Positions 29,306 through 55,489 of a DNA stretch of 64,000 nucleotides are shown here, piece by piece. The notes under the pieces are model-generated. The model was not told the origin of the DNA. It saw nothing but the letters and a program-made list of their open reading frames with translations, and did not search any database. Within the stretch, counting starts at the first letter, position 1; every line of letters begins with the position of its first letter. The DNA comes from Clostridiales bacterium UBA4039 (GTDB lineage Bacteria; Bacillota; Clostridia; Lachnospirales; Vallitaleaceae). A program made the position numbers and the translations under genes. The stretch lies in assembly GCA_002382805.1 (NCBI GenBank), contig DGAD01000008.1, positions 62,001 to 126,000 of the forward strand, in the 5' to 3' direction.

Positions 29306-29348
29306 AAAGCACATGCTATAAAGGTTAAACCTTTGTAGCATGTGCTTT
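29306..29348. terminator. Bidirectional terminator between rqcH and recN
   Basis: Nineteen base pairs (one of them G-T) join arms 29306-29324 and 29330-29348 around a 5-base loop. On the minus strand it is followed by six T. The recN stop codon (29327-29325) is in the loop, so the last seven or so recN codons form one arm. Confidence 0.9.
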
Positions 29349-31010
29349 CATTTCAAGCGCATTCGCAATCGTTATATCTGTTGTCTTTGCTCCGCTTAGC
29401 ATTCGAGCCAATTCATGGATACTGTCCTTTTCATTTAATGTTTTCATTTGGGTTATAGTGGCATCTTCCAAGGTCTCTTTATGAATTAAGAAGTGGCAAT
29501 CTGCCATCGCCGCAATTTGAGGTAAGTGGGTAATACAAATCAATTGACGTTCTCTTGACAATCGACGCATACGTTCAGCAACCTTTTGCGCAGTAATTCC
29601 GCTTATTCCCGAATCAATTTCATCAAATACAAGAGTATCTACTCCATCTACACTTGAAAGGATGGATTTGATTGCCAACATGACACGACTTAACTCTCCG
29701 CCAGATGCAACATCTGACAATGGCTTTTTGGCTTCACCTTTGTTCGTCGAAATCTCAAAGACAACCCGATCTATTCCTAACGGTGTGTAGCTATCAAGTG
29801 GTTTGACTGTAATTCCAAACTCAGCATGTTCCAGGTTCAACGCTTTTAAAGCATCCGTAATTTCGTGTTGGAGTACCAATGCTCCTTTTTTTCGAATGGA
29901 TGTTAATTTATCTGCATTTTCTTGCATTTTTATTTCCAAGGCATGTATTTGTTTTTTGGTCTGCTGTAATTTTTTTTCATAATGAATCAAATCAGCCAAC
30001 TCATCTTCTTTATTATTTTTATATTCAAGAATATCTACAAGTGTATCACCATACTTAAGTTTTAAACCATTAATTGTATTTAATCGCTCTTGGGCATGAT
30101 AAAACACTTCTTCATAGTTTTCTTCATCATCCATGTACTTTGAAAGATCATGATGAATCATATTTAAGATATCTTCAATTTGAGCCAAACTCTCCAGTAC
30201 GTTGGTCAAGTCTTCATCATAAGCCACCACACGGTTAAGTTCTCCAATATACTTAGATACCATTGAAGAAAAATCCGGGGCATCATAGAATGTGTTTTCA
30301 ATACTTGATAATATATCCATAATCTTTTTACGATGTGAAAGGCGATCAAAGATTTTTTGTTGTTCTTCATCTTCACCAAGCTTTAATTCGGCTTTGGTGA
30401 TTTCATCAATTTCAAATTCCAAAAAAGCAATTTCTCGACGTCGCTTTTCATCATCCAACATGTCTTCATTGATTGAATCAAGAAGTTGACGATGATTTTT
30501 ATATGCCCCATTATACCCTTCTAAAACTGCCAAAAGTTCATCACCAATATATCGATCTAACATTTGCAACTGTTTTTTTGAGATAAGTAGTGATTGATGT
30601 TCATGTTGAGAATGAATATCAATCAAATAGCTTGCCAAGCGACGAATAACTTCCATACGAACGACTTCGCCATTTACCCGAAAAACACTTCGACCATTTT
30701 GAGCTGTTTTTCGATTAAGAATAATAGAGCCTTCATCACTTTCTACACCATTTTCTTGAAGAATTCTCTGAATATCTTGTCGTTCTTCTCCAATTCGCCC
30801 AATATCAAAAACACACTCTACAAAAGCTTCTTTTGCTCCGGTGCGAATAAAGTCTTTTTTTATTTTGGCTCCTAGTACATAATGAATCGATCCGAGGATA
30901 ATGGATTTACCTGCTCCCGTCTCACCGGTTAATATATTGAGCCCTTCACTGAAGTCAATTTCAAGTTCTTCGATTAATGCAATATTTTTAACATGAAGAT
31001 AGGCTAACAT
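29325..31010 (-). CDS. recN: DNA repair protein RecN
   Basis: RecN is an SMC-like ATPase for double-strand break repair. Walker A GETGAGKS is at residues 29-36; a long coiled coil fills the middle (about 150-370); the C-terminal half has the ABC signature DVASGGELSRVMLAIK and Walker B DTLVFDEIDSGISG. The 561-residue length is normal. AAGGAGGACAT precedes the ATG. It lies 9 bp after argR and is the last gene of the Asp23-to-recN operon. spoIVB and spo0A, which usually follow in spore-forming Clostridia, are absent. Confidence 0.96.
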   Translation of the reverse strand: MLAYLHVKNIALIEELEIDFSEGLNILTGETGAGKSIILGSIHYVLGAKIKKDFIRTGAKEAFVECVFDIGRIGEERQDIQRILQENGVESDEGSIILNRKTAQNGRSVFRVNGEVVRMEVIRRLASYLIDIHSQHEHQSLLISKKQLQMLDRYIGDELLAVLEGYNGAYKNHRQLLDSINEDMLDDEKRRREIAFLEFEIDEITKAELKLGEDEEQQKIFDRLSHRKKIMDILSSIENTFYDAPDFSSMVSKYIGELNRVVAYDEDLTNVLESLAQIEDILNMIHHDLSKYMDDEENYEEVFYHAQERLNTINGLKLKYGDTLVDILEYKNNKEDELADLIHYEKKLQQTKKQIHALEIKMQENADKLTSIRKKGALVLQHEITDALKALNLEHAEFGITVKPLDSYTPLGIDRVVFEISTNKGEAKKPLSDVASGGELSRVMLAIKSILSSVDGVDTLVFDEIDSGISGITAQKVAERMRRLSRERQLICITHLPQIAAMADCHFLIHKETLEDATITQMKTLNEKDSIHELARMLSGAKTTDITIANALEMKAHATKV

Positions 31011-31019
31011 ATGTCCTCC

Positions 31020-31475
31020 TTATGCGCTATGAATAATCCGGTTAAGTTTTTCCATAATAGAAATGCAGTCATCTTCGGTGCGAACAGCGCAAAAAATAGT
31101 ATCATCCCCAGCAATGGAACCCACAATTTCATCAAAATCTAGTGCATCAATAGCTGCCGCAACTGCCATTGCCATTCCAGTTAATGTTTGAATAACAATT
31201 AAGTTCATTGCTCTATCCATACTCAAATATCCATCCTGAAGAACACGAATATATTTCTCGTTGAGATTCATGGTCTTTTCTTGAAGAACTACATATTTTT
31301 GTCGTCCGTCAGGCAAAGAAACTTTGGTCAATTTTAAGTCACGAATATCTCGTGATATGGTTGCTTGGGTTACCTCAAAACCATTTTGATGCAATAATTC
31401 TGCAAGTTCATCTTGGGTCTCGATAACCTGCTCTGTAATTAATTGTAAAATTTTTGTTTGTCGTTTAATTTTCAT
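31020..31475 (-). CDS. argR: Arginine repressor
   Basis: ArgR/AhrC is a hexameric repressor of arginine synthesis that binds DNA in response to arginine. The N-terminal winged helix (residues about 1-70, with VTQATISRDIRDLKL) and the C-terminal oligomerisation and arginine-binding domain (IVGSIAGDDTIF) are complete at 151 residues. GAAGGTGGTCTT precedes the ATG. The argR-recN pair is conserved across Firmicutes. No arginine biosynthesis genes are nearby. Confidence 0.95.
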   Translation of the reverse strand: MKIKRQTKILQLITEQVIETQDELAELLHQNGFEVTQATISRDIRDLKLTKVSLPDGRQKYVVLQEKTMNLNEKYIRVLQDGYLSMDRAMNLIVIQTLTGMAMAVAAAIDALDFDEIVGSIAGDDTIFCAVRTEDDCISIMEKLNRIIHSA

Positions 31476-31525
31476 AAGACCACCTTCACTCGGTTCATGC
31501 CACTATAACATGACCACATATTCGT

Positions 31526-32371
31526 TTATGATAATTTCCGTCGTAGAATTTCAAAGAAATCATTATTACATAGTCGCATTAATTTGACTTTTTTTGCCGC
31601 CTTATTTATGCGTATAATATCACTCGTATTGACCCGTGTTACTTCTTGACCATCAATTGTCACCAACAAGTCATTGACATGTTTATTGCGTGGTTGATCA
31701 AAACGAATATCTATTCGGTCTTCCCCTGATAAGACAATACTTCTTGCCGTTAATGAATGGGGACATATGGGCGTTAAAACAATCACGCCATTGGTCGGTG
31801 TTATAATCGGTCCACCCGCCGAAAGATTATATGCCGTTGAACCTGTTGGTGTTGAGATAATAATTCCATCGGCTCGATATGTATTCATATATAAATCATT
31901 AACATAAACATCATAACTAATAATTCGAGAGATTGATTGACGTGTAATAACAATATCATTAAGCGCCCTACCTATCTCTTTATGATCTTGGACATTTGCC
32001 GTAACCATCATTCGTTCTTCAATAATAAACCCATCATCAACAAATGCTTGAAGGGCTTCTTCTAACTCACTCAGCTCAATTTCAGCTAAAAAGCCAAGGT
32101 TCCCTAAATTAATGCCTAAAAGTGGAATGTCATTATCCGCATATTTTCTACTGGCTGAAATAATAGTACCGTCTCCTCCAAGAATAATTGCATAATCAAT
32201 AATATCTAACTGTTCATCTTGGATACAAAGATGTGCAAAATCTTGATTGTGTCTATATTCATCCGGCATAAAAATCTGAATATTTTTACTGTTAAACCAT
32301 GCGATGACACGTTGAGTAATTAAAAATGAAGGATCTTTTGATGGATTAGGTACAATTAATATTTTTTTCAT
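31526..32371 (-). CDS. nadK: NAD kinase
   Basis: NadK phosphorylates NAD to NADP. The diagnostic GGDGT is at residues 65-69 and the second conserved segment STPTGSTAYNLSAGGP is intact. I use the start at 32371 (MKKILIVPNPSK), giving 281 residues; the longer frame to 32425 overlaps tlyA and has no support, though the ribosome site at 32371 (AAAGTGATG) is modest. It begins 4 bp after the tlyA stop. Confidence 0.94.
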   Translation of the reverse strand: MKKILIVPNPSKDPSFLITQRVIAWFNSKNIQIFMPDEYRHNQDFAHLCIQDEQLDIIDYAIILGGDGTIISASRKYADNDIPLLGINLGNLGFLAEIELSELEEALQAFVDDGFIIEERMMVTANVQDHKEIGRALNDIVITRQSISRIISYDVYVNDLYMNTYRADGIIISTPTGSTAYNLSAGGPIITPTNGVIVLTPICPHSLTARSIVLSGEDRIDIRFDQPRNKHVNDLLVTIDGQEVTRVNTSDIIRINKAAKKVKLMRLCNNDFFEILRRKLS

Positions 32372-32375
32372 ATCA

Positions 32376-33212
32376 TCACTTTCTGTATAAGTCACGATGT
32401 GCATTATTAACAAGTTCACTAACATCTTTTAAGCTCTTCGCGTTGATTTCTAAAGAAGCTTCAATAGACGACGTTTCATTTTTTTGTGCACAAATCAAGT
32501 ATTCAATATTCCCTTGAGGACCTGTAATAGGAGAATAACTGATTCCCTTAATAGATAAATTAATCGCTCCAAATGTATGAATGATGTTCTCAATAACTTC
32601 TTGATGAACCTTGGGATCGCGAACCACACCTTTTTTGCCAACCTTGTCGCGTCCAGCCTCAAATTGAGGCTTTATCAAGCAAACAATAGTCGCACCTTCC
32701 TTCATTAGCGCACAGACTGCCGGGAGTACTTTGGATAAAGAAATAAAGGAGACATCAATTGAGACAAAATCAAGCAAATCAGGAATCTCAGCCTCGGTCA
32801 CATAACGTATGTTTGTCTTTTCTAAGCAAACCACACGTGGATCTTGTCGAAGTCCCCAGTCAAATTGTCCATACCCTACATCAACCGCATAGACTTTAGC
32901 TGCTCCATGCTGAAGCATACAGTCAGTGAAGCCTCCTGTCGATGCACCTACGTCCATGGCTATTGCACCTTCTAGCAAAAGATCAAAGGTTTGAATCGCT
33001 TTTTGTAATTTGAGTCCTCCACGACTTACATAGGGATTTGGATCTTTTTTTACAAGGATTGTTGCTGTCGTATCAATTTTGGTTCCGGCTTTATCCTCAC
33101 GCTGGCCATCCACAAAGACCAACCCTGCCATAATCATTTTTTTTGCTTTTTCTCGTGTTGCAACATATCCATTATCTACTAGTAGTATATCTAAACGTTC
33201 TTTATTTGCCAT
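32376..33212 (-). CDS. tlyA: TlyA family rRNA (cytidine-2'-O)-methyltransferase
   Basis: An N-terminal S4 RNA-binding domain (residues 1-60) is joined to an FtsJ-like methyltransferase domain with the SAM motif DVGASTGGFTDCML and DVGYGQFDW. In mycobacteria TlyA methylates 16S and 23S rRNA and sets capreomycin sensitivity; in Firmicutes the target is probably rRNA. At 278 residues the length is normal. It overlaps the dxs 3' end by 11 bp. Older annotations call it hemolysin A, which is misleading. Confidence 0.93.
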   Translation of the reverse strand: MANKERLDILLVDNGYVATREKAKKMIMAGLVFVDGQREDKAGTKIDTTATILVKKDPNPYVSRGGLKLQKAIQTFDLLLEGAIAMDVGASTGGFTDCMLQHGAAKVYAVDVGYGQFDWGLRQDPRVVCLEKTNIRYVTEAEIPDLLDFVSIDVSFISLSKVLPAVCALMKEGATIVCLIKPQFEAGRDKVGKKGVVRDPKVHQEVIENIIHTFGAINLSIKGISYSPITGPQGNIEYLICAQKNETSSIEASLEINAKSLKDVSELVNNAHRDLYRK

Positions 33213-35100
33213 TATCCTTCGCTCTTTCTATTGTTAACACTCGATTTGTCAAACCTTCAACATCAATATGCAATGCACGATTTAAATCAGAAATCTTTCC
33301 GTGTGGAACAAATTGATTTTCAATTCCAATACCATAAACTCTTGGTATTACTATCTTAGAAGAATCTTCTTCCAACAGCATTTGTGCAATGCGGCTTTGC
33401 ACTCCACCATATTTTACATTTTCTTCAAAAACATACACACGTTCATATCTTTGAGATATCGTTTGAATGAATCCCGGATCAATAGGATTTACAAATCTTA
33501 GATTCACAAGATCACATGTACAGCCTTGCTCTTTTAATCTAGCATGCACCTGTGTAACGCGTGAATAAAAATGTCCGACGCTCAATAACAAACTCTTATT
33601 CTCTTCTTGTATAAGCCATTCTGGTTGTCCATATGTAATTGGTGCATCTGTCGATTGCATCTCATCTTTTCCCTTTGGATAACGAATAGCAATAGGGCCT
33701 TCATTATACTCGGCTGCAAATTCAAGCATAGCCTCTAATTCTTGTCCTGATTTTGGTGCCATTACAGTCATATTAGGAATGTGGCTTAAGTAAGATAAAT
33801 CAAAAAGTCCTTGATGTGTCTCTCCATCTTCACCAACAAGTCCTGCACGATCAATGCAAAATACAACGGGTAATTTTTGAATGGCAACGTCGTGAATAAC
33901 CTGATCATAAGCGCGTTGCAAAAAGGAAGAATATACAACAAAGAAAGGCTTATATCCCTGTGCGGCAAGCCCTGCTGAAAAAGTCACTGCATGCTGCTCG
34001 GCTATTCCTACATCGAAAAATCGTTGTGGGTATTGTTTTGAGAACTTGCTCAATCCTGTTCCACTACACATAGCCGCAGTAATCGCAACAATTTTTTTGT
34101 TGCTATCTGCCAGATGTGTTAACGTCTTTCCAACGATTTCCGAATACGAAGGCTTTGAAACTTCAACGCCCTTATGAAAATCTCCATTAGTTTTATCAAA
34201 TGGTTTTACACCATGATATGTCATTGGATCTTTTTCGGCAGGATTGTAACCTTTTCCTTTTAATGTTAGTGTATGAATAATAACGGGACCTTTAACATGC
34301 TTTGCTTGTTCAATACTCGTAATTAATTGTCGAAGATCATGTCCGTCAATCGGCCCTAAATAAGTATATCCAAGTTCTTCAAAAAGCATGCCTGGAACAA
34401 CAAGTTGTTTAACACCATTTTTAACTCCACGTACACCTTTAACAATAGAATTACCTACTTTTGGTATTTTACGAAGTGTTATTTCGATATCATTTTTAAA
34501 ATCATTATAAAATTCGCCCGTTCTAAAGCGATCTAAGTATAATGCTAAACCACCAACATTACGATCAATTGACATTTGATTGTCATTGAGAATAATAATA
34601 AATTTTTTCTTTATGTTGGCACCATTATTAAGCGCCTCATAAGCCATGCCGCCGGTTAGCGCACCGTCTCCAATAATTGGAACAATGTATTGTTCCTCTC
34701 CATTTAAGTCTCTGGCTGCTGCCATACCAATACCTGCGGATATCGATGTCGATGAATGACCTGTATCAAAACAATCATGAATGCTTTCACTACGCTTTGG
34801 AAAGCCAGATAAGCCTTTCCATTGGCGTATTGTCGACATTTGATCACAGCGTCCTGTCAAGATTTTATGCACATAAGCCTGATGCCCGACATCCCATATT
34901 AATTTATCCTCAGGTGAATCAAAACATTTGTGCAATGCCAAGGTCAATTCAACAACACCTAGGTTTGAGCTCAAATGCCCACCTGTTTCGGATGTTACAT
35001 CTATAAGATAGCGTCGAATTTCGTTCGCCAGTTTTTTCATTTCTAGTATATTCAGTTTTTTTATATCTGATGGTTCTTTGATTGTTGGTAATATCTTCAT
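33202..35100 (-). CDS. dxs: 1-deoxy-D-xylulose-5-phosphate synthase
   Basis: Dxs joins pyruvate and glyceraldehyde-3-phosphate using thiamine diphosphate, the first step of the MEP isoprenoid pathway. The ThDP motif begins GDGALTGG at residues 144-151; the N-terminal SETGGHLSSNLGVVELTLAL and C-terminal transketolase domains (IDRAGLVGEDGETHQG) are intact. The 632-residue length is normal. It lies 10 bp after the oapA-like gene and shares an operon with ispA. Confidence 0.97.
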   Translation of the reverse strand: MKILPTIKEPSDIKKLNILEMKKLANEIRRYLIDVTSETGGHLSSNLGVVELTLALHKCFDSPEDKLIWDVGHQAYVHKILTGRCDQMSTIRQWKGLSGFPKRSESIHDCFDTGHSSTSISAGIGMAAARDLNGEEQYIVPIIGDGALTGGMAYEALNNGANIKKKFIIILNDNQMSIDRNVGGLALYLDRFRTGEFYNDFKNDIEITLRKIPKVGNSIVKGVRGVKNGVKQLVVPGMLFEELGYTYLGPIDGHDLRQLITSIEQAKHVKGPVIIHTLTLKGKGYNPAEKDPMTYHGVKPFDKTNGDFHKGVEVSKPSYSEIVGKTLTHLADSNKKIVAITAAMCSGTGLSKFSKQYPQRFFDVGIAEQHAVTFSAGLAAQGYKPFFVVYSSFLQRAYDQVIHDVAIQKLPVVFCIDRAGLVGEDGETHQGLFDLSYLSHIPNMTVMAPKSGQELEAMLEFAAEYNEGPIAIRYPKGKDEMQSTDAPITYGQPEWLIQEENKSLLLSVGHFYSRVTQVHARLKEQGCTCDLVNLRFVNPIDPGFIQTISQRYERVYVFEENVKYGGVQSRIAQMLLEEDSSKIVIPRVYGIGIENQFVPHGKISDLNRALHIDVEGLTNRVLTIERAKDNGK

Positions 35101-35110
35101 ATGTTTACAC

Positions 35111-35695
35111 CTATTTTCTTTTTAAAGTTAACCGTTTAAAATAATACATAATCAATCCAATTCGGTAAACAATTGTATTCGAAAAACGTAAAGCAATTTC
35201 CTTACCTATAGCTTTTCCTCCAACTGTGATTCCAGCTATAATCCCTCCAAGGATAATACCTAAAATAAGCTCCTGTCGATTCGAATCAAGCATCAGCTTT
35301 ATCACAATTGCAGAGGAAGCACTTCCCGATATAATTCCCGCAATATCTCCGATCACATCATTAAAAAAATTCGACACGCTTGATGCGTTACGAATAATTG
35401 TCACACTTTCTCTAGCCCCTTTCACCTTACTTGCTGCCATAGAATGAAAAGGAGTCTCATTGGCCGCAGTTACTGCAATTCCGATCAAATCTGAAAAAAT
35501 CCCCATAAAAATTATGAAGAGTAGAATAAATACAGCACCAGCAAGTGAAAGAATATCCATAAAAATCATAGAAAAATATCCTAAGAGCATGGCTATAATA
35601 AGTGTAATGACTGTAATACTTACAATCCAATGATAATTCACTTTTCGATTAACGTTTTTTTGTCGAAATTTAAATTTTTGTTCAGTTTTCCCCAA
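35111..35695 (-). CDS. oapA: OLE-associated membrane protein OapA homologue
   Basis: This 194-residue protein has a basic N-terminus (about residues 1-20) and hydrophobic segments near 23-47, 50-78, 120-136 and 143-160. A DxxxD motif (NDVIGDIAGIISG, D113 and D117) matches the conserved feature described for OapA, the protein that binds OLE RNA and anchors it to the membrane. It lies immediately after the RNA gene. The start is TTG at 35695, 7 bp after AAGGAG, since no ATG is available. Generic searches may call it CorB/DUF21-like; in OLE-bearing genomes the same protein is OapA. Function is inferred from context and motif. Confidence 0.82.
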   Translation of the reverse strand: MGKTEQKFKFRQKNVNRKVNYHWIVSITVITLIIAMLLGYFSMIFMDILSLAGAVFILLFIIFMGIFSDLIGIAVTAANETPFHSMAASKVKGARESVTIIRNASSVSNFFNDVIGDIAGIISGSASSAIVIKLMLDSNRQELILGIILGGIIAGITVGGKAIGKEIALRFSNTIVYRIGLIMYYFKRLTLKRK

Positions 35696-35728
35696 CGATG
35701 TACTCCTTCATCAATTAAATGATTATTA

Positions 35729-36322
35729 TTAACTAAAGATAGTTCATAATGTAAATTTTGAGGCTTATGGTCTAGCAGGTTTTCCCATGAGCTAACTCTT
35801 TTGTCGCCAAAAAAAGCGGTTTCCCTTTAATATCTCATTATAATTGTCGCCAAACTATACGCTAGATCGCCTTTAACCCCACCGTAATCCACTATAAACT
35901 TGTTGCCAACAGCCTAGAAGTTTTCCTTTCTAACTTTCAATATTCCTAGCCTTTTTAGCAAAGACATGTTTCAGATGACAATAGCTTCAGTCTCTTGGCC
36001 GAGAGCCCTACGCCTAAATCATAATCCCCATCTCTTCACGCAAGGCAGGCTACACTGTCCACAGCTTTCGCCGCATGACAGGTTTATTCCGACACCGTAA
36101 GATATCTTCCAAAAGATCTTCCCACAAATAGTCGGTCTCCACGACGATAGGGTCAACGCCCACATGCCATTGTGGATCGCCCTAACGTCTTAACTCCCAG
36201 CATCAGCCCGCAACTGGGCGTCGCCAGCCAACACCAGGAACTTCATCGATATGCCCTTTGACGGATTTTTAGGCCCGCTTTCAGAATAAGAAAATTAACT
36301 AGAATACTGCATCTTTAGTTAA
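35729..36322 (-). ncRNA. ole: OLE RNA (ornate, large, extremophilic RNA)
   Basis: The 644-bp gap between the PAP2-like gene and oapA has no credible coding frame. It shows: a -35/-10 promoter ending at 36328; a perfect 12-bp inverted repeat joining its ends (35729-35740 with 36311-36322) and closing a 594-nt transcript; G+C of 32/60 at 36001-36060 and 36181-36240 at 36/60, far above the AT-rich neighbours; and internal hairpins such as GCCC-N6-GGGC (36206-36219) and CTCT-N6-AGAG (35992-36005). Length, an oapA-like gene downstream and the xseA-xseB-ispA / dxs-tlyA-argR-recN setting match OLE RNA, which forms a membrane ribonucleoprotein. No T-rich terminator follows, so it is probably co-transcribed with oapA or processed. 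Ends are inferred. Confidence 0.85.
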
Positions 36323-36327
36323 ACCAT

Positions 36328-36356
36328 ATTATATCATATTTATATCACGATTCCAA
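36328..36356 (-). promoter_or_regulatory. Internal promoter for OLE RNA
   Basis: TTGGAA (36356-36351), 17-bp spacer, perfect TATAAT (36333-36328) on the minus strand. It overlaps the last codons and stop of the PAP2-like gene and predicts a start near 36321, the end of the RNA's terminal stem. Confidence 0.75.
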
Positions 36357-36780
36357 TAACTATACCAAGTACCATTCCAACAAAGACTTCTAGGTATGTA
36401 TGCCCAAGCAACTCCTTAAGTTCTTCATCAAAATGAAAGCGATGTTCCCCAATCTCTTTGATAATCACCTTTATTACACTGGCTTGCTTGCCTGCTGCCA
36501 TCCGAACCCCGGCAGCATCATACATGATGATTAGTGAAACCACTAATCCCATTCCAAATATCGGAGAATCATATCCATAATTTTGTCCCACAGCAAAGGT
36601 TGCTGCCATAACCGATGCTGTATGAGCACTAGGCATTCCGCCTGATCCCATAACACGTTCTAGGTCAAATTTTTTATGTTTAATAATTGAAGTCAAGACT
36701 TTAACGCCTTGAGAAACGATCCATCCAATTAATGCTGCAGCAAAAATCTTGTTTGTAAAAATACTCATTACAATTTGCAT
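36340..36780 (-). CDS. Divergent PAP2 family (DUF212) membrane protein
   Basis: A 146-residue protein with about four membrane segments. The sequence VMGSGGMPSAHTASVMAAT contains the PSAH part of the PAP2 phosphatase motif, and MYDAAGVRMAAGKQA is the second conserved block. This is the DUF212/YuiD type, found also in plants; its substrate is unknown, but a lipid or isoprenoid phosphate is plausible next to ispA. It follows ispA by 15 bp. Its 3' end carries the OLE promoter. Confidence 0.88.
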   Translation of the reverse strand: MQIVMSIFTNKIFAAALIGWIVSQGVKVLTSIIKHKKFDLERVMGSGGMPSAHTASVMAATFAVGQNYGYDSPIFGMGLVVSLIIMYDAAGVRMAAGKQASVIKVIIKEIGEHRFHFDEELKELLGHTYLEVFVGMVLGIVIGIVI

Positions 36781-36795
36781 GTTTATTCACGTCCT

Positions 36796-37710
36796 TTAGT
36801 GATTTCGATTCTGAATATACTCAACAACCTCAGCTAGCATTGATTCATGATGGGGATCATATTCTTCAATCGTTTGATTAATTTGCTCAAAGAGCTTTTC
36901 TACTTGTTTTGTCGCTTCATCCATACCATAGAATGAAACATACGTCATCTTACCATTTTTTTCATCGCTGCCAATCGGTTTGCCCAATACTTCTTGGGTA
37001 CTATTACAATCTAAGATATCATCTTGAATTTGAAAAGCTAATCCTAGAGCATTACCAATTTGCGAGAATTTTTCTTGATCAGCTTTTGTTCCACCTGCAA
37101 GTATACACCCGGCTTCAAAACACGCCTTTATAAGCGCTGACGTCTTATGTTCATGAATATAGAGCATCGTATCTATTGAAACTTTTGGTTCCTTTTCATG
37201 AGCGATATCTGCAATTTGTCCCCCAATCATTCCATGAATCCCCGCATATTCTCCAAGGATGGAAGCCGCATAGACTAAACGTCTGCTTTTTTCATTCGAT
37301 ATATCGGCATGCATCTGACGTGTTAATGTCTTAAATAGTGTTTCATAAGCATAGTTTAGTAAAGTGTCCCCCGCCAAAATTCCATTTGCTTCTCCATAAA
37401 CAATATGGCATGTTGGTTTGCCACGACGAAGAGCATCGTTATCCATTGCCGGTAGGTCATCATGAATTAATGAATAGTTATGTATCATTTCAATAGAGGC
37501 CATATAAGGGAAGATAATATCTTCTTCAACCTCTTTAGCAATCAATTGATACGCCGCATACATTAAAATTGGACGCAAACGTTTCCCACCATTTAAAAAA
37601 CTGTATCGTGCAGCCTCTATTCCAATAGAATTCTCATGATTTTCTTCTTTTGGAAGATAACTACTTAATATTGCCTCAATTTTTTTTTGCATTTCATCTA
37701 ACTTTTTCAT
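36796..37710 (-). CDS. ispA: Polyprenyl (farnesyl/geranylgeranyl) diphosphate synthase
   Basis: The enzyme chains C5 units into farnesyl (or geranylgeranyl) diphosphate. The first aspartate-rich motif DDLPAMD is at residues 84-90 and the second (QDDILD) near 228. The GGKRLRP motif at 41-47 is intact. The 304-residue length is normal. Its ATG overlaps the xseB stop as ATGA. Linked to dxs by operon. Product chain length cannot be fixed. Confidence 0.95.
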   Translation of the reverse strand: MKKLDEMQKKIEAILSSYLPKEENHENSIGIEAARYSFLNGGKRLRPILMYAAYQLIAKEVEEDIIFPYMASIEMIHNYSLIHDDLPAMDNDALRRGKPTCHIVYGEANGILAGDTLLNYAYETLFKTLTRQMHADISNEKSRRLVYAASILGEYAGIHGMIGGQIADIAHEKEPKVSIDTMLYIHEHKTSALIKACFEAGCILAGGTKADQEKFSQIGNALGLAFQIQDDILDCNSTQEVLGKPIGSDEKNGKMTYVSFYGMDEATKQVEKLFEQINQTIEEYDPHHESMLAEVVEYIQNRNH

Positions 37711-37886
37711 TCAATTACTCTCAATTCTTTTTCAATCGTTTCTAATTTTTGGGTACATGATTCAATAAGTTCCATTCCCTTTTTATATTTTGCAACAGCT
37801 TCATCCAGAGGAATATCTTTATGTTCTAATTCACCTAATACTTGCTCTATAGATTTAATCATTTCTTCATATGTTTGTTCAGCCAT
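37707..37886 (-). CDS. xseB: Exodeoxyribonuclease VII small subunit
   Basis: I translate a 59-residue protein beginning MAEQTYEEMIKSIEQVLGEL and ending ELRVIE, with the family's predicted helical hairpin and the LDEAVAKYKKGMELI core. It stabilises XseA. The start ATG shares its first base with the last base of the xseA TAA stop, and its stop overlaps the ispA ATG, so three genes are coupled. Short length would make it easy to miss; sequence and position leave little doubt. Confidence 0.93.
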   Translation of the reverse strand: MAEQTYEEMIKSIEQVLGELEHKDIPLDEAVAKYKKGMELIESCTQKLETIEKELRVIE

Positions 37887-39085
37887 TAAAACACCTCTTT
37901 TCTAAGAACTTTTGTCACTGTTTTTCCATCCTGCATATAAAGCTCGATTTCATCACCTATGGAAAGTTCATTGATCGAACGTATACGTTGCCCATTCACT
38001 TCCACATATGCAGCCCCGTCTTCAAGGGAACGTAAAGGAGATTGACCTTTTAAACGCTCACGAAGTAACGCAAGCTCTTGTTTTTTTCTTTCAAATAAAA
38101 ACCTCATGTTTTTTTGCATATATTCTCTTAATTGCTCAACATGATTTAATCGGTCTTCAAGGCGCTTCCTTGGATGCAATGCATCCAAACGTTTTTGTAG
38201 ATGCTCAAGGGTTTGCTTGTTTGCTACGATGGAATGATTGAGTCGTTGACTTAGCCAAAGTTGATATTGAGTCAGTTGCTGTTTTGCCACATAGTAATCA
38301 AATACGGCTAATTCAGCTGCAGCAGAAGGCGTTGGCGCCCTCATATCAGATACAAAGTCTGCAATGGTATAATCTGTCTCATGTCCGACTGCAGAGATAA
38401 TTGGAATATCAGAAGCATAGATAGCCCTTGCAACCACTTCTTCATTAAAAGGCCACAAGTCTTCTATGGACCCTCCACCACGTCCCACAATGAGGACATC
38501 CACAGTTTCATTGGCATTAAAATACTCAATTCCATTGACAATCGACTCCTTAGCCATATTGCCTTGGACTAAACTTGGGTACAAAATCAGTTCCACAAAA
38601 GGATACCGTCGTTTCGCCACTTGAACGATGTCGCGAATAGCCGCTCCGGTTTCACTTGTGACGATACCAATACGTTTTGCATATGTTGGAATAGACTTTT
38701 TATATGTGGTATCAAAAAGTCCTTCCTCTTCTAATTTTTTCTTTAACGCTTCAAATTGGATATAAAGATTGCCTAGACCAGCTTTTTGTATAGATGTCAC
38801 GTAGATTTGATACTGTCCGGTTTTTTCATAGACCGATACACGACCTTTTACAATAACCTTTGTCCCATCGCTTAAGCCGCATTCTTCACCTGTAACGTAA
38901 CTACGAAATAATACACATGAAACCTGAGCTTTATTATCTTTTAATGTAAAGTAATAATGCCCTGATCCATGTGCTTTAAAATTTGACAACTCGCCTTCAA
39001 CAGACAGTGCCTTTAAAATAAAGTCTTGTTCAAATGTACGTTTAATATATGTATTTAATTGGAAAACAGATAACACATTATCCAT
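37886..39085 (-). CDS. xseA: Exodeoxyribonuclease VII large subunit
   Basis: XseA degrades single-stranded DNA from both ends. An N-terminal OB-fold (residues 1-100; LSNFKAHGSGHYYFTLKD) leads into the catalytic domain with RIGIVTSETGAAIRDI, VGRGGGSIEDLWPFN and SAVGHETDYTIADFVSDMRAPTPSAAAE split across conserved blocks, then a coiled coil. The 399-residue length is normal. Part of nusB-xseA-xseB-ispA. Confidence 0.96.
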   Translation of the reverse strand: MDNVLSVFQLNTYIKRTFEQDFILKALSVEGELSNFKAHGSGHYYFTLKDNKAQVSCVLFRSYVTGEECGLSDGTKVIVKGRVSVYEKTGQYQIYVTSIQKAGLGNLYIQFEALKKKLEEEGLFDTTYKKSIPTYAKRIGIVTSETGAAIRDIVQVAKRRYPFVELILYPSLVQGNMAKESIVNGIEYFNANETVDVLIVGRGGGSIEDLWPFNEEVVARAIYASDIPIISAVGHETDYTIADFVSDMRAPTPSAAAELAVFDYYVAKQQLTQYQLWLSQRLNHSIVANKQTLEHLQKRLDALHPRKRLEDRLNHVEQLREYMQKNMRFLFERKKQELALLRERLKGQSPLRSLEDGAAYVEVNGQRIRSINELSIGDEIELYMQDGKTVTKVLRKEVF

Positions 39086-39094
39086 AATGCCCTC

Positions 39095-39499
39095 TTATAC
39101 TATTTTTTTTGCTATTTGCCCTAAGACACCATTGACAAAACGTGAAGATTGACTTTGACCATATATTTTTGACAATTCAACGGCTTCATTTATGGCAACA
39201 GATACAGGAACATCATCATATTGCATATCAAAGACAGCAACCCGCAATATAGCCAGTTCTATCTTTGCAATACGGTCAATGGCCCATTTGTCCGAACACG
39301 TTTCAATCAATTGATCAATAGGTTGTACATATTCAACTAACTTTAATACACGTGTTTTTATTAATTCCTGATCCTCTTCATCTTTTAATTCTAGACTTTG
39401 AAGTGACACATCTATATCTTCTACATTACAATGTGTTCCATCAACATCTAATGAAAAAAGTAATTTAAACGTTAATTCTCTTTGTTTATGACGGTTCAT
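39095..39499 (-). CDS. nusB: Transcription antitermination factor NusB
   Basis: NusB, with S10, binds boxA in rRNA leaders for antitermination. The 134-residue protein is all helical with the N-terminal RELTFKLLFSLDVDG and the C-terminal VPVSVAINEAVELSKIYGQSQSSRFVNGVLG, both typical of NusB. It sits between Asp23 and xseA, the usual place. Confidence 0.96.
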   Translation of the reverse strand: MNRHKQRELTFKLLFSLDVDGTHCNVEDIDVSLQSLELKDEEDQELIKTRVLKLVEYVQPIDQLIETCSDKWAIDRIAKIELAILRVAVFDMQYDDVPVSVAINEAVELSKIYGQSQSSRFVNGVLGQIAKKIV

Positions 39500-39511: not shown

Positions 39512-39889
39512 TTAAGCGTTACTTTTATCAACATTCACGCCTGCTACTTTTATATTCACTTCTTTAACGTCTAAACCTGTCATTGTCTCGACAGCGACTT
39601 TCACTTTTTCTTGAACCGACTTTGTGACATCAACAAGTGCACATCCAAATTCTACAATCACAGCTAATTCAAGTGTAACGTCACCTTCGCCAACTGTAAC
39701 TGCGACACCTTTAGATAGATTCTTTTTACCAAGAAGCTCTACTAGGTCTCCTGTAAAGTTCCCAACCATACCAGCAACACCATCAACTTCTGAAGCAGCC
39801 ATGCCTGCAATGATTGCAATCACTTCGTCTGCAATGTGTACAGAACCTACATCTTTTGATTCATGTATCTTAAATAATTGTCTATCCAT
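39512..39889 (-). CDS. Asp23/Gls24 family envelope stress response protein
   Basis: The 125-residue protein shows the Asp23 pattern: VHIADEVIAIIAGMAASEVDGVAG at the N terminus, GVAVTVGEGDVTLELAVIVEFG in the middle and VEVNIKVAGVNV-like end (VKEVNIKVAGVNVD). These proteins lie under the membrane and respond to envelope stress. AGGAGGCTATT precedes the ATG. It is the first gene of the operon containing nusB and the OLE RNA. In spore formers spoIIIAA-AH sits upstream; here it is absent. Confidence 0.92.
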   Translation of the reverse strand: MDRQLFKIHESKDVGSVHIADEVIAIIAGMAASEVDGVAGMVGNFTGDLVELLGKKNLSKGVAVTVGEGDVTLELAVIVEFGCALVDVTKSVQEKVKVAVETMTGLDVKEVNIKVAGVNVDKSNA

Positions 39890-44160: not shown

Positions 44161-44775
44161 CTAGTTCTTGTTTCTGTATTTATAGGTATTACTTAGCGAG
44201 ATTGTGGAATCATTTTTTCTGAAATTGATAAATATATTGATTCCTCCGCTTTCTTCAAAAGACTGATTATAACTAGGTTCAACAGCCCAGCTATCCACAT
44301 ATTCTGCGAAAACATACCATTCACTATTCAGCATGGATACGTTATAGTCTATTTGATAGGGCATACTCTCTAATGTATCTATTGTTTTAAATACAATTCG
44401 ATTATATACAAAATCGTGCAAAAAAACAACCTTGTCCCCATGATTTCCTTCGCTCACATACTCAAACACCAATGCATAAGGATTATCAATTCGTCCTGTC
44501 GAAGTTATCGCATTATGTTCCATGCCCGTTCGTTGATCTGATGTTATATAGGATACTCCACCGGATTCCATCGCCACTTTACCGATACGATTTAGAGCCA
44601 GTTGCCCCTCATATTGTATATCGATGGAACTTTTTGCTGTTTCAAATGACTGGATATGAATGACAAGGAATGAACCAATGACACCGACAATAATTGATAC
44701 AATAACAGATGCTACCAATAATTCTACAAGACTAAATCCATCCATTTTTCGAATAAGCTTCTTTTTATAAATCAT
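44161..44775 (-). CDS. Minor prepilin (PilW/ComGF-like)
   Basis: A class III-type leader ends at G13 with GFSLVELLVASVI (mature F1, E5), followed by a membrane helix and about 170 residues of beta-rich head. This is a pilin-like subunit. An ATG at 44775 has GGGTG seven bases upstream; an alternative ATG lies at 44781. It overlaps the preceding prepilin gene. Last pilus gene of the locus. Confidence 0.85.
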   Translation of the reverse strand: MIYKKKLIRKMDGFSLVELLVASVIVSIIVGVIGSFLVIHIQSFETAKSSIDIQYEGQLALNRIGKVAMESGGVSYITSDQRTGMEHNAITSTGRIDNPYALVFEYVSEGNHGDKVVFLHDFVYNRIVFKTIDTLESMPYQIDYNVSMLNSEWYVFAEYVDSWAVEPSYNQSFEESGGINIFINFRKNDSTISLSNTYKYRNKN

Positions 44776-45346
44776 CAACATTCACCCGCCCTGTCAATTT
44801 AACAACACTAACCTCCATCGCTTTGGTTGTGTTTTGGCTTCTAATATTTAGTTTAATTACTTGACTGGTTCCTAGTGTACTGTTATATGTTGAAATGCTA
44901 TCACCGTCAAAGTTACTTTCCACTCCGTCACCAAGTTCTTTTGAAAAACGAAAGGTTAACTCCTGTTTAATTTGATTCGCACTTAATGTTTCTATTCGGG
45001 TGGCTATGCCATTGATTTGTTTATCCACTATAAAATGTTTTGGCCATCTTTTTTCTTTTAGCTCTATAATGGCACCAGAACTTGTATCTTGTTCAAAAAT
45101 GTTGTACCCATATTGTTGTTCTATGACATCATAGAAAAAAATAAGCGCATATGAATGGTTATATTCCATCATTGTTCTATTGCGGATATCTTGCAAATCA
45201 GATTTGAACTCACCTACATTGGCTTCAACACTATTTTCAAAAACACTATGTACACTCATAGATACGATTGTAACCAATATGGATAACACAGCTATAGCAA
45301 TGATGATCTCTATAAGTGTAAACCCTCGTTCACTTTTTTTAATCAT
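44765..45346 (-). CDS. Minor prepilin (GspH/FimT-like)
   Basis: The leader MIKKSERG precedes FTLIEIIIAIAVLS (mature E5), then about 160 residues of variable head. I place the start at 45346, with GGAG nine bases upstream and an ATGA overlap with the upstream stop; an upstream TTG is possible. It is likely a minor pilin initiating assembly. Confidence 0.86.
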   Translation of the reverse strand: MIKKSERGFTLIEIIIAIAVLSILVTIVSMSVHSVFENSVEANVGEFKSDLQDIRNRTMMEYNHSYALIFFYDVIEQQYGYNIFEQDTSSGAIIELKEKRWPKHFIVDKQINGIATRIETLSANQIKQELTFRFSKELGDGVESNFDGDSISTYNSTLGTSQVIKLNIRSQNTTKAMEVSVVKLTGRVNVDDL

Positions 45347-48096
45347 TGTGCAATTCTCCAATTCTTGATATGAATATATTCTTCATAATGCTTGCGCATT
45401 TCGCCTATATCGCCAGGAGCCACTAATATTTCTTCAATCACTTCCATCTGGTTAAGTTCAATACCTAGCGGACTGTTTAGCGTATCCCGATTAAATGCAC
45501 TTGATAGTTTTGGTGTCTCCATAATAAGCTGGGTCAAATAGTTGCGAACGTCCATAGAATTATTAATAATATCGACCGACGCATTTTCTATATATATATT
45601 TTCCTGGGCAATGATTGTCCCATAATATGTCATATCACCAACAATCGTCACTTCACCTGAAGTAATGACGACACCCTGCATTTGCGTCGGACTCTCATCC
45701 GTTGTATTGATGACATAATAGTTTTTACCATTAATAGTTTGTAATCCATCGAGTAATCCTCTATATTGGGCTGGTGGATTGTCCCCTATCAGCAATATGT
45801 CTTGTTGATGCGATGTTCCTTGAAAAATAGCTACTTCCTTTACTTGACTATCTCCAGATAATCCTGTATTGACCGTATAATAATCCACCTCCTCAATAGA
45901 AGCATCTTTCCCAATCCACTCTGCTGTAGGCGTCTGATCAATATTGGAGTAATTGCCAATCACTCGCGCATTCTTCATGTTTTCAATTGTATCTTTAACA
46001 TTTGATGTGTCTCCATAAAATCCAATCGGATCCCCTTGTGCTTGTCTATGTCTTAAGTAATTCAAAATATATGTATAGTCTCGTAAAATCTCTGTTTCTG
46101 CATAATTGTTCATCAGATTTCCATTGGTGCTATGTACATCAATCGTCTGATTTCCAGAGGCTGAGTTGCCCATCACTGCTCCTTGGGTAAAAATATAAGC
46201 ATCATGGTCAATGTTAATATTTCCATCACCTTTTTCAATAAAAGGTTCAACAGATGCTTCCTGGCTGATTTGTGTAAAATATGTCGCTTTGTCCTCGACC
46301 GACATCACATCTGAAGCGCCATCAACTTTGTAATATAGCTGAAGACTAGATTCTGCTCCTTTTGCCGGCGTCGCCATCTGGATGCCCGCACCGCCTTCTG
46401 CTAATCCACTTGTATCTGAAATTGGAAATGCATAGGCTAAATAGTTACCTCGAATTCCCATGCTCTCTCCTGTTTCATATAAACTAGAAGGTCCATTATT
46501 AGGGTCTGGTGTAAACGTATCGTTAACAAAAGATGTTCCTGCAATAAAAATACCTTCTTTATCGCTTTCTTCTTCAATGGGATGTTTGGGTGGATGCCCA
46601 GTGATGTTTAATGATGAGGTTCCTGTTCCACGTTGAATATCTGCATTGATTACAATAGAGCTTAATTGATGATAATTATTCGACCTTCCAACAAATCCAT
46701 AATAATTTCCATCAATATTGATATGATTACCTTTTCCATTTAATATCAAATCATTTTTGGTGTAGACATTACCATTGATAACATCAATGCGATTATTCTC
46801 TCCGATAATATGATGACGTGAATCCGATTGAATGGCCAAACTGTCGCAATAAATATGACCATTTAGAACCGATAAGTGAGAATTTTGAGTTCCGGCCTCC
46901 ATTTGAACAAAGCTCTGTGTCACTACATCTCCAGATACGGAAATAGTATTATCCTGACCTGCAACAATAACCCCCTTATAATTATTGGTATTACGCGGTG
47001 AATTGCTATTTTGTGGATCCAAGTTAAAATCGCCTGTAGGATTTGTCCCCAGTGCATACATATTACCTATGATCACAGCATCCACATTCGCAAACCGTAA
47101 ATCCTTCTCCGTTACTAGCGCATATTGCCATAAGGGATTATCTACTGTGGCATATTTAGACTGATTCACAGTAATTGGCATCATATCCTTTGGCGCTTCT
47201 ATAACTAAATCGGTGGATATAGTTCGTTGTGTCCGATCATGAAATGTAAATGTGGATGTTAACTCTTTAACGACAAATTGGTTATCATACAATGCATGAC
47301 CATCGGTCTCAGAAAAGTCCAGGATTTCAGAAAAATCAATACTTTCTAATATAAGATTTCCAAGCGTAGCTTCTTGGTCCAGAAAGATATAGTTTGATGT
47401 TCCTCCAGAAGATTTGATATCTGCTTCAATTGCAGATACTGCACTGTTAAAATATTCCTTAAAGTGATAATTCATTCGCTCATTATGATATCTCGTCATT
47501 GCATCTTGATCAAACACAATTGTATGGTATGCGTGATCTGAGTAATCATCCGCTTTGGTCAGAACACGTGTCATATGATCCGGGGTTCCAGACATTACTT
47601 TTAAAAAGTACCCCTCATACAAACCACTTGAATAATCATTATACAAATTATATGTTGCGTGAATATTACTTAAAAACTGCTTAAGGTATAATTTTCGATT
47701 CATATAACCACTGGGTGTTGTGCTCGTAGAATAAGCTCCATTATATAGCACATTCTGTTCAATTAAATAGACCATGTCTAGCATAAGTTGAGATTCATAA
47801 CTTCGAATGTCTGACAGTATATTTTCCATAACCGTCTTCTTCTGCAAAACATCTAACGCAGTTTCATCAGATGCATATTTTAAAGCCTCATCTACATAAT
47901 ATCCAAGAATTGAATACACTTGATCTACACCAGATTCGGAGTAATACTGGGTACGTTTCATCATCGTATCTGTAAACTTCATATTGTAGTTCATTAGACT
48001 CAAGGATAATATTGTTGTTCCAAGAACAGTTAAGACTGCAATGGTAATTACAGTCATAAGAAGCGTCGAACCTTTTTCACTTTGTAAATGTCGCAT
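45343..48096 (-). CDS. Very large PilX-like pilus protein with beta-helix-like repeats
   Basis: About 917 residues. The N-terminus (MRHLQSEKG, then STLLMTVITIAVLTVLG) looks like a PilX-type type III leader and helix: a Gly cleavage site but Met in place of the E5 residue. The rest is rich in short Gly/Asn/Asp repeats (VNGNVYTKNDLILNG, HINIDGNYYG, ISVSGDVVTQS), which suggest a parallel beta-helix, as in surface or bactofilin-like proteins. It is far larger than PilX (~200). The start at 48096 has AGGTGA at good spacing. Function, perhaps a tip or adhesive subunit, is inferred from the locus. Confidence 0.75.
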   Translation of the reverse strand: MRHLQSEKGSTLLMTVITIAVLTVLGTTILSLSLMNYNMKFTDTMMKRTQYYSESGVDQVYSILGYYVDEALKYASDETALDVLQKKTVMENILSDIRSYESQLMLDMVYLIEQNVLYNGAYSTSTTPSGYMNRKLYLKQFLSNIHATYNLYNDYSSGLYEGYFLKVMSGTPDHMTRVLTKADDYSDHAYHTIVFDQDAMTRYHNERMNYHFKEYFNSAVSAIEADIKSSGGTSNYIFLDQEATLGNLILESIDFSEILDFSETDGHALYDNQFVVKELTSTFTFHDRTQRTISTDLVIEAPKDMMPITVNQSKYATVDNPLWQYALVTEKDLRFANVDAVIIGNMYALGTNPTGDFNLDPQNSNSPRNTNNYKGVIVAGQDNTISVSGDVVTQSFVQMEAGTQNSHLSVLNGHIYCDSLAIQSDSRHHIIGENNRIDVINGNVYTKNDLILNGKGNHINIDGNYYGFVGRSNNYHQLSSIVINADIQRGTGTSSLNITGHPPKHPIEEESDKEGIFIAGTSFVNDTFTPDPNNGPSSLYETGESMGIRGNYLAYAFPISDTSGLAEGGAGIQMATPAKGAESSLQLYYKVDGASDVMSVEDKATYFTQISQEASVEPFIEKGDGNINIDHDAYIFTQGAVMGNSASGNQTIDVHSTNGNLMNNYAETEILRDYTYILNYLRHRQAQGDPIGFYGDTSNVKDTIENMKNARVIGNYSNIDQTPTAEWIGKDASIEEVDYYTVNTGLSGDSQVKEVAIFQGTSHQQDILLIGDNPPAQYRGLLDGLQTINGKNYYVINTTDESPTQMQGVVITSGEVTIVGDMTYYGTIIAQENIYIENASVDIINNSMDVRNYLTQLIMETPKLSSAFNRDTLNSPLGIELNQMEVIEEILVAPGDIGEMRKHYEEYIHIKNWRIAQ

Positions 48097-48108
48097 CAAA
48101 ATCATCAC

Positions 48109-49038
48109 CTACTCTTTTGCCAGTCGTGTTGTCACAACTTTAGACAGCAGCTTTCCATTTTTGTTCACTTCAATTTCAAATTCATATAGTCGATAGTCAA
48201 AAATCAAGGGTTCTGTTATATTGCGATGAATGGTATTTGTTCCTGTGTTTAGGTCAATGATCGGTTTGATTTGATCTTGCGGCGTCTCATACACATAAAT
48301 ATCTGCCACGTCTCCTGAGCTATTTGTAATCTCTATATTGGTTGTTATATGGTCTTCTTGCGTCATAGTATCTAATGTAACAATATTAATGATACCTTCA
48401 TAATCTATGGCTTTTATTTCTTCACTATAATGGGTTCCGTTTATTTCAACATCTATTTTTAACTCATCCGAGTTAATTTTCTTTATATTGATTGCAACTT
48501 CCCTATTTTCCGCCGCCCCTATAATTTCATGCTCTATTAAGTGACGTTCACGATCATATAAATACACTCTAGCCGATGAAGTTTTTGCATCGTCTAGTCG
48601 GATTTCCACATCAAATGTATGGGTCCTATTTGCAATTTCAGACACAGGCATTCGATATTTACTATCATCAAATTCATTGTTATAGCCAATATCCACATTA
48701 TCCTTTCTTAGCATAAAAAAGACTTCATATCCTTGTGGAATCATAGGCAAATCAAAACGCGAAAGAACATCATCACTTAATTTTCCAGTTGCATCGACTG
48801 CACTATCTAAATCCAACACTTGTTCCATATGCATGGTTTTAATGCTTTCAATAAACTGTTGTGTCAATTGGGTTGCTTTTAGTTGTTCGCGTGTTTGAAT
48901 TGATGAAGCCAATGCACTTTGAAAAATCAGTGCAATAGGAACAGTAACGATACCTATAATGGCAACGGTGACGATGACTTCAACTAGTGTAAACCCTTGA
49001 TTTAAGCTTTTATATTTTTCTAGACGCTTTCTTCCCAT
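48109..49038 (-). CDS. Minor prepilin (PilV-like)
   Basis: The leader MGRKRLEKYKSLNQG is followed by FTLVEVIVTVAIIGI (mature F1, E5; 309 residues). The head has two parts; the second (from about residue 170) looks like repeated beta strands. The start at 49038 has GGGTGATC; a longer frame to 49155 overlaps the upstream gene. It is transcribed ahead of the large PilX-like gene. Confidence 0.86.
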   Translation of the reverse strand: MGRKRLEKYKSLNQGFTLVEVIVTVAIIGIVTVPIALIFQSALASSIQTREQLKATQLTQQFIESIKTMHMEQVLDLDSAVDATGKLSDDVLSRFDLPMIPQGYEVFFMLRKDNVDIGYNNEFDDSKYRMPVSEIANRTHTFDVEIRLDDAKTSSARVYLYDRERHLIEHEIIGAAENREVAINIKKINSDELKIDVEINGTHYSEEIKAIDYEGIINIVTLDTMTQEDHITTNIEITNSSGDVADIYVYETPQDQIKPIIDLNTGTNTIHRNITEPLIFDYRLYEFEIEVNKNGKLLSKVVTTRLAKE

Positions 49039-49072
49039 CCGATCACCCGCTTTTCTTGCCTTAAAAATCTTG

Positions 49073-50191
49073 TTATTGAATAATGGATACATTTCCCTCT
49101 TGATTGATAACATTAAACCGTGGACGGGTCTCATCTTCATATTCAACCCGAACAATCATAGGTAAATCTGTATCATTTATTAACGTTGCATTGACGCCAC
49201 TTGTATCTTGCGCATCATAGCGTCCGCTTGATATGACTTTGACATCAATTACTTGACCTGGAACAAACTCTTTTCCAATAGAATAATCTTCTGGATATGT
49301 TCTGGAACGTGTGCGATATCGATAGTAATACGCATCATTATTTTGACTAATATGTATTTCAATTGGCTCATTATCTGGATTATCTGCCGTTATTTTTGTT
49401 AAATTCTCTTGCCCTGCTCGATACATATTGACCGTATCCATCGCTGAATTAATCGACGTAATTCCTATGACTAGATCATCTACTTCATGAATTTCTCCGG
49501 CTCGAACACCAGAACTATAGTGAATTCCTAACGAGGAAATCGGTCGAAAAACCGAATCATTTTTGGGTGTAAATGTGCCAAAATGCTCCGTAGGTTCATA
49601 CTCCCTATTAGGCGATTCTAATGCGTAAAAAAAGATATCAAAGGTTGACACCACCTGGCTATTGACCAAATCACTGTTGGCATTCATGTTTCCGACAGAA
49701 AGTTTTGAAGGGTATGTTTGAATAAATGATAACATTTGTTTGTAATCATTATAGGTTGTCTCAAAACTGACGCTCACCGGAATTTGAATCACTTGTTCAT
49801 AATTTGTATTCTCATCTGTCTTTGATTCTTCGTCTATATTTTGTACGACGACCATTTCTTTTCCAATAGAATACGTCTGGATGGTCAGTGAGTCGATTGT
49901 ATCTTCAAGTGTTTTCATTATATAAATTATGTCTTCTTGGACTAATCCAGCCGGAAAACCATCGTTCACTCTTTGAACATAGTTTTGTGCTTCTAACGTT
50001 TCGGATAAATATACCTCTTTGTTGGCATATTCTAAAGCTAAAAAAGTCTGTTCTTCACGTAATGCTTCAATTTCCTTGCCCATTAAACGACTTTTTTCTT
50101 GAAGAGGCGAATAAATCATGAACCAATATATAGCAACAACAATGATTCCGCCTAAGAACATGAGTAAGTATTTTTCTTTATTGGTCATCAT
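49073..50191 (-). CDS. pilO: PilO-like pilus alignment protein with C-terminal extension
   Basis: One membrane helix (residues about 8-26), a coiled-coil stretch (30-75) and a ferredoxin-like domain (about 80-190) match PilO, which pairs with PilN. Beyond residue 190 about 180 further residues form an extra beta-rich domain absent from the ~200-residue Proteobacterial PilO. It overlaps the end of pilMN by 14 bp. Family assignment is by topology and position. Confidence 0.8.
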   Translation of the reverse strand: MMTNKEKYLLMFLGGIIVVAIYWFMIYSPLQEKSRLMGKEIEALREEQTFLALEYANKEVYLSETLEAQNYVQRVNDGFPAGLVQEDIIYIMKTLEDTIDSLTIQTYSIGKEMVVVQNIDEESKTDENTNYEQVIQIPVSVSFETTYNDYKQMLSFIQTYPSKLSVGNMNANSDLVNSQVVSTFDIFFYALESPNREYEPTEHFGTFTPKNDSVFRPISSLGIHYSSGVRAGEIHEVDDLVIGITSINSAMDTVNMYRAGQENLTKITADNPDNEPIEIHISQNNDAYYYRYRTRSRTYPEDYSIGKEFVPGQVIDVKVISSGRYDAQDTSGVNATLINDTDLPMIVRVEYEDETRPRFNVINQEGNVSIIQ

Positions 50192-51791: not shown

Positions 51792-51826
51792 CGTATTCCC
51801 CCTATACTTTACTTCTATCTATATCT

Positions 51827-53022: not shown

Positions 53023-53073
53023 TCCTCATACACTCCTATTATTAGATATTTTGTGGGGGTTATCAATTTAACT

Positions 53074-54282: not shown

Positions 54283-54323
54283 AATACTACCCCTTCACTT
54301 TGGCCTTTTTACACAGCAAGATT

Positions 54324-54352: not shown

Positions 54353-54355
54353 TTA

Positions 54356-54406: not shown

Positions 54407-54420
54407 ATTCCTTCTGTTTT

Positions 54421-55476: not shown

Positions 55477-55489
55477 TATATCCCCCTTT

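Follow-up and report, generated by a model that had tools for sequence, protein, structure and literature searches.

The closest described counterparts of the locus analyzed here are the OLE RNA (Rfam family RF01071) of Halalkalibacterium halodurans and those of Clostridium acetobutylicum and Clostridium botulinum, which are known from cryo-electron microscopy. In H. halodurans, OLE occurs as an abundant RNA in its own right, on which protein sites have been mapped (PMC9723947, PMC12054373), and its gene has a promoter of its own (PMC9723947). The DNA in question is a 64,000-nucleotide stretch of Clostridiales bacterium UBA4039 (contig DGAD01000008.1, called the window below), which almost certainly carries an OLE RNA gene, ole, followed directly by the gene of the partner protein OapA. 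The locus shares with the known systems a full-length match to the family model, the secondary structure, the conserved loops, an oapA gene directly downstream, an ispA/dxs/recN operon and a promoter-like site of its own. It differs from them in two respects: no perfect anti-Shine-Dalgarno mimic is present in P6, and a DUF212 gene stands between ispA and ole. This is an ordinary, apparently intact OLE locus of an already described family. Its central features are:

35720-36331, minus strand: ole (OLE RNA gene), supported by a full-length RF01071 match, structure and covariation; 5' end probably near 36321, judging from the promoter position
35111-35695, minus strand: oapA, encoding a 194-amino-acid membrane protein, with a TTG start behind AAGGAG and a DxxxD motif (NDVIGDI); directly downstream of ole
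36328-36356, minus strand: predicted ole promoter, TTGGAA, 17 nucleotides, TATAAT preceded by TG (extended -10); 10/12 matches

Identity and Extent of the OLE RNA Gene

The whole window was searched against Rfam, and RF01071 was the only family above its cut-off. The match covers 612 nucleotides (35720-36331, minus strand) and the complete model (positions 1-616 of 616), with a score of 458.2 bits (E = 2.7e-131) against a gathering score of 50 bits. An earlier sequence-only reading had named this RNA on this strand and had proposed an Rfam search as the check, and the name proved right. OLE is present as a single copy in the genome and occurs in all 22 genomes of the family; the highest score in the order is 515.5 bits.

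The same reading had described a large protein-free stretch, unique at that size in the window, with G+C-rich islands. The layout of open reading frames agrees: none of at least 60 amino acids (ATG, GTG or TTG start) lies inside 35696-36339, and the OLE stretch is the sole gap near its own size between frames of at least 80 amino acids, the next internal gaps being about 200 bases. The G+C content is 42.8% over the RNA gene and 48.4% in its subregion 36026-36331, compared with 36.9% for the window; 1.8% of 612-nucleotide stretches (50-base steps, those overlapping OLE included) reach the OLE level. The coordinates held in part: the inner interval formerly given, 35729-36322, comes close to the probable start near 36321, whereas the Rfam match spans 35720-36331 and not 35696-36339.

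Secondary Structure and Conserved Loops

The structure was examined on a MAFFT alignment of 26 OLE sequences, namely that of the window and those of the 27 named loci other than L012 and L016, which are cut by contig ends, combined with the Rfam structure. When this structure is projected onto the window RNA, 157 of the 159 model pairs have letters on both sides, 143 of them standard and 14 non-standard. Over the alignment, in which many rows are close Bacillaceae-type relatives and counts are not independent events, 86.7% of the paired cells can pair, compared with 72.1% when partners are shuffled and 40.6-46.5% when the structure is slid. Changes on both sides are seen in 105 of the 157 pairs, and the covariation score is 0.455 (shuffled 0.199, slid 0.10-0.14), for a structure that derives from the family model to which all 26 rows belong. 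The internal hairpins noticed in the sequence-only reading are thus real and conserved, by the model match as well as by the alignment.

Four helices pair less well: helix 6 (47.8% of cells), helix 8 (32.7%), helix 11 (64.2%) and helix 12 (57.5%). These helices lie in variable stretches in which the MAFFT columns are uncertain, and the weakness of helix 8, of which two pairs and no loop are left in the window, is an artefact of the model projection. P3, as that stem is named in the papers, belongs neither to the Rfam structure nor to the covariation counts; its 5' side is nearly invariant in the alignment.

The loops implicated in dimer formation were mapped onto the alignment, the P-numbers being assigned according to our own reading of PMC12286853, PMC12265935, PMC9723947 and PMC12054373. 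CUAAAAA (the A-rich L4) and CAANGGCAUG (L6) are found in all 26 sequences, GCCCA (L5) in 24 and GGCC of the palindromic L9 in 21; all four are present in the window RNA. On the k-turn side (OapC, near P5), AUCGAUGAA is conserved in 26/26 rows and GRAG in 25/26, at the level of sequence. The OLE RNAs of L018, L021, L022, L033 and L034 are devoid of the outer P9 stem and the GGCC kissing loop, and that of L029 is devoid of the P5 tip bearing the L5 loop.

The anti-Shine-Dalgarno mimic in P6 is absent from the window RNA, and CCUCC or CUCCU occurs in 2 of the 26 aligned sequences. This element was described for H. halodurans, without a claim of universality, and mutants M1-M3 of that RNA, in which the mimic is altered, still bind bS21 (PMC12054373). 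Its absence is therefore no argument against bS21 binding, and the mimic is not treated here as a defining feature.

The Partner Protein OapA

The sequence-only reading had placed an oapA-like gene with a DxxxD motif next to the RNA, and such a gene is found at 35111-35695, with an open reading frame and the motif as NDVIGDI. The gene adjoins ole in 27/27 loci, and the motif is invariant in the 26 aligned OapA proteins (from the window and 25 named loci, all 27 except L012 and L020). In the order, OLE and OapA occur in the identical 29 of 146 genomes. The window protein is 91% identical to that of the nearest named locus, L009, and 43-46% identical to the Bacillaceae-type rows.

The predicted structure of the window OapA contains long helices and bears a likeness to the CNNM fold. 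This likeness is drawn from the ordering of rows and the VIA-align Z in the structure comparison, together with a weak Pfam CNNM score (17.2 bits, below the cut-off of 28.4); at E values up to 1, such a weak score is obtained for 12 of the 26 OapA rows. Foldseek with the model returned nothing at E values of 0.001 or lower, no other Pfam match was found at 0.001, CBS and CorC included, and the four matches of the sequence in the PDB (best E 0.44) were judged unrelated, leaving no meaningful relative there. In comparison with known OapA proteins, the window protein has the same position, size, DxxxD motif and CNNM-like model but has diverged in sequence. With the MpfA/CorC (CNNM) Mg2+ transporters, it shares the predicted fold of the membrane domain; by contrast, its 194 residues carry DxxxD, a motif that CNNM domains lack (PMC11332333), and no CBS or CorC match. 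With CNNM below the Pfam cut-off and the CBS and CorC domains lacking, it does not show the MpfA architecture. Its identification as OapA is supported by position, motif, predicted fold and co-occurrence with OLE.

Twelve of the 29 OLE carriers of the order have no CNNM (MpfA-type) protein above the cut-off, compared with 3 of the 117 other genomes (Fisher P = 1.3e-7, a test that ignores relatedness). Within this one order, these counts agree with the anticorrelation reported previously (PMC11332333). The window genome is among the 17 OLE carriers keeping at least one CNNM protein; it encodes a single protein of MpfA architecture (CNNM-CBS-CorC), 438 amino acids long, at L040:986-2302.

Other Partner Proteins in the Genome

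The genome also encodes further OLE partners, namely OapB, an OapC candidate and bS21, which are usual, though not universal, for OLE. An OapB homologue is encoded at L037:9407-9688, between a peptidase M24 (map-type) gene and the IF-1 gene. A search of the genome with PF00467 (KOW) missed it, and Pfam gives OapB no name; it was located by inspecting the open reading frames between the methionine-aminopeptidase-type and IF-1 genes and then confirmed against the PDB (OapB, 7k9b, E = 4.3e-9). The OapC/YbxF candidate lies at L036:3034-3288, between rpoC- and rpsL-type genes, and matches 4lck and 3v7e (E = 1.4e-11). The genome has a second L7Ae-family protein (L038:5484-5786); the former was chosen because of its gene position and its YbxF match, and it alone was compared with the PDB. 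The bS21 gene adjoins YqeY.

Promoter and Transcript Start

Upstream of the RNA, an extended -10 box, TGATATAAT, ends at 36328, with TTGGAA located 17 nucleotides upstream. TGnTATAAT precedes the conserved CAGUAU in 22 of the 26 loci, including the window, and is missing in L010, L019, L023 and L025. Among 200 shuffles, the share scoring as high as the real site is 0.0 for the window, 0.89 for L015 and 0.395-0.82 for the four loci without the box. The scan of 35000-37000 gave nine sites where 7.0 were expected in shuffles, so that the site alone means little, and it was used only after its recurrence in the relatives had been seen. From the end of the -10 box, the transcript probably starts near 36321.

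The Operon Around ole

The genes surrounding ole and oapA in the window are the following:

39512-39889, minus strand: Asp23-family gene (PF03780)
39095-39499, minus strand: nusB (PF01029)
37886-39085, minus strand: xseA, exonuclease VII large subunit (PF02601)
36796-37710, minus strand: ispA, farnesyl diphosphate synthase (NF045485, 308.7 bits)
36340-36780, minus strand: DUF212 (divergent PAP2 family) gene (PF02681, 151.1 bits), directly upstream of ole
33202-35100, minus strand: dxs (TIGR00204, 813.2 bits), directly downstream of oapA
29325-33212, minus strand: tlyA, NAD kinase gene, argR and RecF/RecN/SMC-type gene, by family matches, downstream of dxs

The Asp23-family gene at 39512-39889 is presumably yqhY. 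The RecF/RecN/SMC-type gene (29325-31010, with a PF02463 match) is taken, from the gene order in relatives, to be recN. The recurrent order is asp23-nusB-xseA-ispA-(DUF212)-ole-oapA-dxs-tlyA-(nadK)-argR-recN. Among the 26 named loci that hold the corresponding side, dxs follows oapA in 23 and is absent from L018, L021 and L022; in these three, ole-oapA stands behind ispA-DUF212, with no dxs, tlyA, nadK or argR match in the fetched flank. In the window, argR lies inside the operon, at 31020-31475; unpublished evidence of ArgR binding OLE is mentioned in PMC12054373 and PMC12265935.

Of the 24 named loci holding the ispA side, 12 have DUF212 between ispA and ole. In the order, 24 OLE genomes carry DUF212, 22 of them immediately upstream of ole, and five OLE genomes are without it. 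In the two exceptions, the genes are on separate contigs (G018) or about 9 kb apart (G019); the intervening DNA of the latter (L089) holds MerR-, sensor kinase-, MFS- and Cthe_2159-type genes. No DUF212 was found by tblastn at E 1e-4 in the Bacillaceae-type loci L024, L026-L032 and L035. OLE RNA and DUF212 were not found together in the literature searched, the neighbour list of Breaker et al. (2023) being outside that search, and PMC12265935 contains no mention of DUF212, YuiD or PAP2.

Elsewhere in the window, a type IV pilus-like cluster (PilM, T2SSE, T2SSF, prepilin peptidase, N-methyl pilins) occupies 44161-57187. It includes proteins of 921 (45343-48108) and 372 amino acids (49073-50191) without Pfam match at 1e-5.

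The Operon in Relatives Without OLE

The sample of the order consists of 146 genomes, 29 with OLE and 117 without; DUF212 is present in 101, of which 77 are without OLE. Twenty of these 77 were examined (L065-L084), a hand-picked set drawn largely from the upper end of the score list. OLE is absent from all 20 in the scan of the 146 genomes, and a second scan covered 7 of the 20 stretches. In 18, dxs comes immediately after DUF212, with the familiar neighbours around them, and only ole-oapA is missing; the matched ends of DUF212 and dxs lie 24-321 bases apart, which leaves too little room for ole and oapA. In some of these loci, individual neighbours went unmatched at E 1e-3, e.g., tlyA in L081, asp23 in L072 and ispA in L076. 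The two exceptions are L084, where dxs is missing behind the upstream half, and L082, with DUF212 alone. Since DUF212 occurs in 77 of the 117 genomes without OLE, in 18 of the 20 examined within the same operon before dxs, it was rejected as an OLE-specific partner. For the same reason, the operon with isoprenoid and recombination genes, cited in the sequence-only reading as the setting of OLE, is indeed present but is not diagnostic.

One of these loci retains a scar. L066 belongs to a genome without OLE (G113); two other members of its genus (g33), G046 and G120, carry both OLE and oapA. The gap of 246 bases between DUF212 and dxs (L066:4427-4672) holds two pieces of oapA, corresponding to residues 4-41 (71% identity, E = 2.9e-15) and 165-190 (65%, E = 1.4e-6) of the G120 protein in a comparison with four sequences. 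OLE is missing entirely, as is the middle part of oapA, and no OLE remnant was found in L066:3900-5000 at E values up to 1. This looks like a joint loss of ole and oapA, as read from the sequence; such a scar, to be taken as provisional because G113 is a draft assembly that is 86% complete, is present in only 1 of the 18 OLE-lacking loci with the DUF212-dxs junction. Weak blastn matches of OLE pieces in the L070 and L073 gaps (E = 0.03-0.05) look like chance. No earlier account of the operon control or of the oapA scar was found in the literature searched, nor of OLE RNA with Vallitalea; the novelty of the control and the scar is established no further than by that search.

Proposed Mechanism and Alternatives

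The RNA, its conserved fold, the adjoining partner gene, the further partner genes in the genome and the promoter-like site were observed directly. The extended -10 promoter of ole would drive its transcription, the gene being included in the operon mRNA as well, and the RNA would fold into the OLE structure. By analogy with the published work on H. halodurans and Clostridium, it would pair with a second copy through the conserved loops. OapA, a short CNNM-like protein, would hold it at the membrane, and the RNA would recruit OapB, OapC and bS21. The resulting ribonucleoprotein would respond to stress and affect divalent-metal handling and growth under stress. There is high confidence that the locus comprises a full-length OLE RNA gene and its partner oapA, with this as the most likely mechanism, and conservation suggests that the RNA is functional.

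An OLE-derived, decayed and nonfunctional RNA is very unlikely. Its score of 458 bits does fall below the 515.5 reached in the order, and there are the 14 non-standard pairs, but the full model is matched, 143 of 157 pairs are kept, oapA is open and every genome of the family has OLE; true decay is exemplified by L066, where only oapA pieces are left. Still less credible is a long structured leader (riboswitch or attenuator) of oapA-dxs instead of a free-standing RNA. The position upstream of these genes on the same strand would suit a leader, and a simple scan of the minus strand in 35000-37000 gave no terminator-like site; however, the match spans all 616 positions of the OLE model, no other Rfam family scores above cut-off in the window, and its H. 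halodurans counterpart is a separate RNA, as noted above.

A more serious alternative, although still a rather improbable one, accepts a true OLE RNA but ties its function to the genes around it in the operon (isoprenoid synthesis, DNA repair, cell wall), for instance by action in cis on their mRNA or products. The recurrence of the gene order, with dxs after oapA in most loci, fits such a tie, and the clustering was argued to suggest functional links in PMC12265935, where ArgR binding is also mentioned as unpublished; argR is part of the operon. On the other side, 18 of the 20 OLE-lacking genomes examined keep the DUF212-dxs operon, so the neighbours cohere without OLE; L018, L021 and L022 keep ole-oapA with no dxs, tlyA, nadK or argR following; and 22 of 26 loci have the promoter-like site. 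The presence or absence of ole-oapA inside a persisting operon weakens arguments on OLE function that are drawn from neighbour genes.

These observations lead to a proposal to which roughly even odds are given, that ole and oapA form a self-contained module, which sits under a promoter of its own within a conserved housekeeping operon and is lost as a unit when its service is unneeded, and that the operon neighbours (isoprenoid, DNA repair, Asp23/yqhY) lie outside its function. It is derived from the restriction of both genes to the same 29 of 146 genomes, from the 18 operons in 20 that lack just this block and from the scar of G113 beside its OLE-bearing congeners.

Among the structured bacterial RNAs that have no assigned biochemical function, OLE is one of the largest. 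Well-supported loci with a complete partner set, such as this one, enrich the comparative data. The most useful by-product is the group of OLE-lacking relatives that keep the operon, with one scar among them, as a natural test of the coupling of OLE to its neighbours. If ole and oapA do form a module of their own, arguments from the neighbourhood would leave the debate on OLE function, and the focus would return to OapA and an MpfA-like role.
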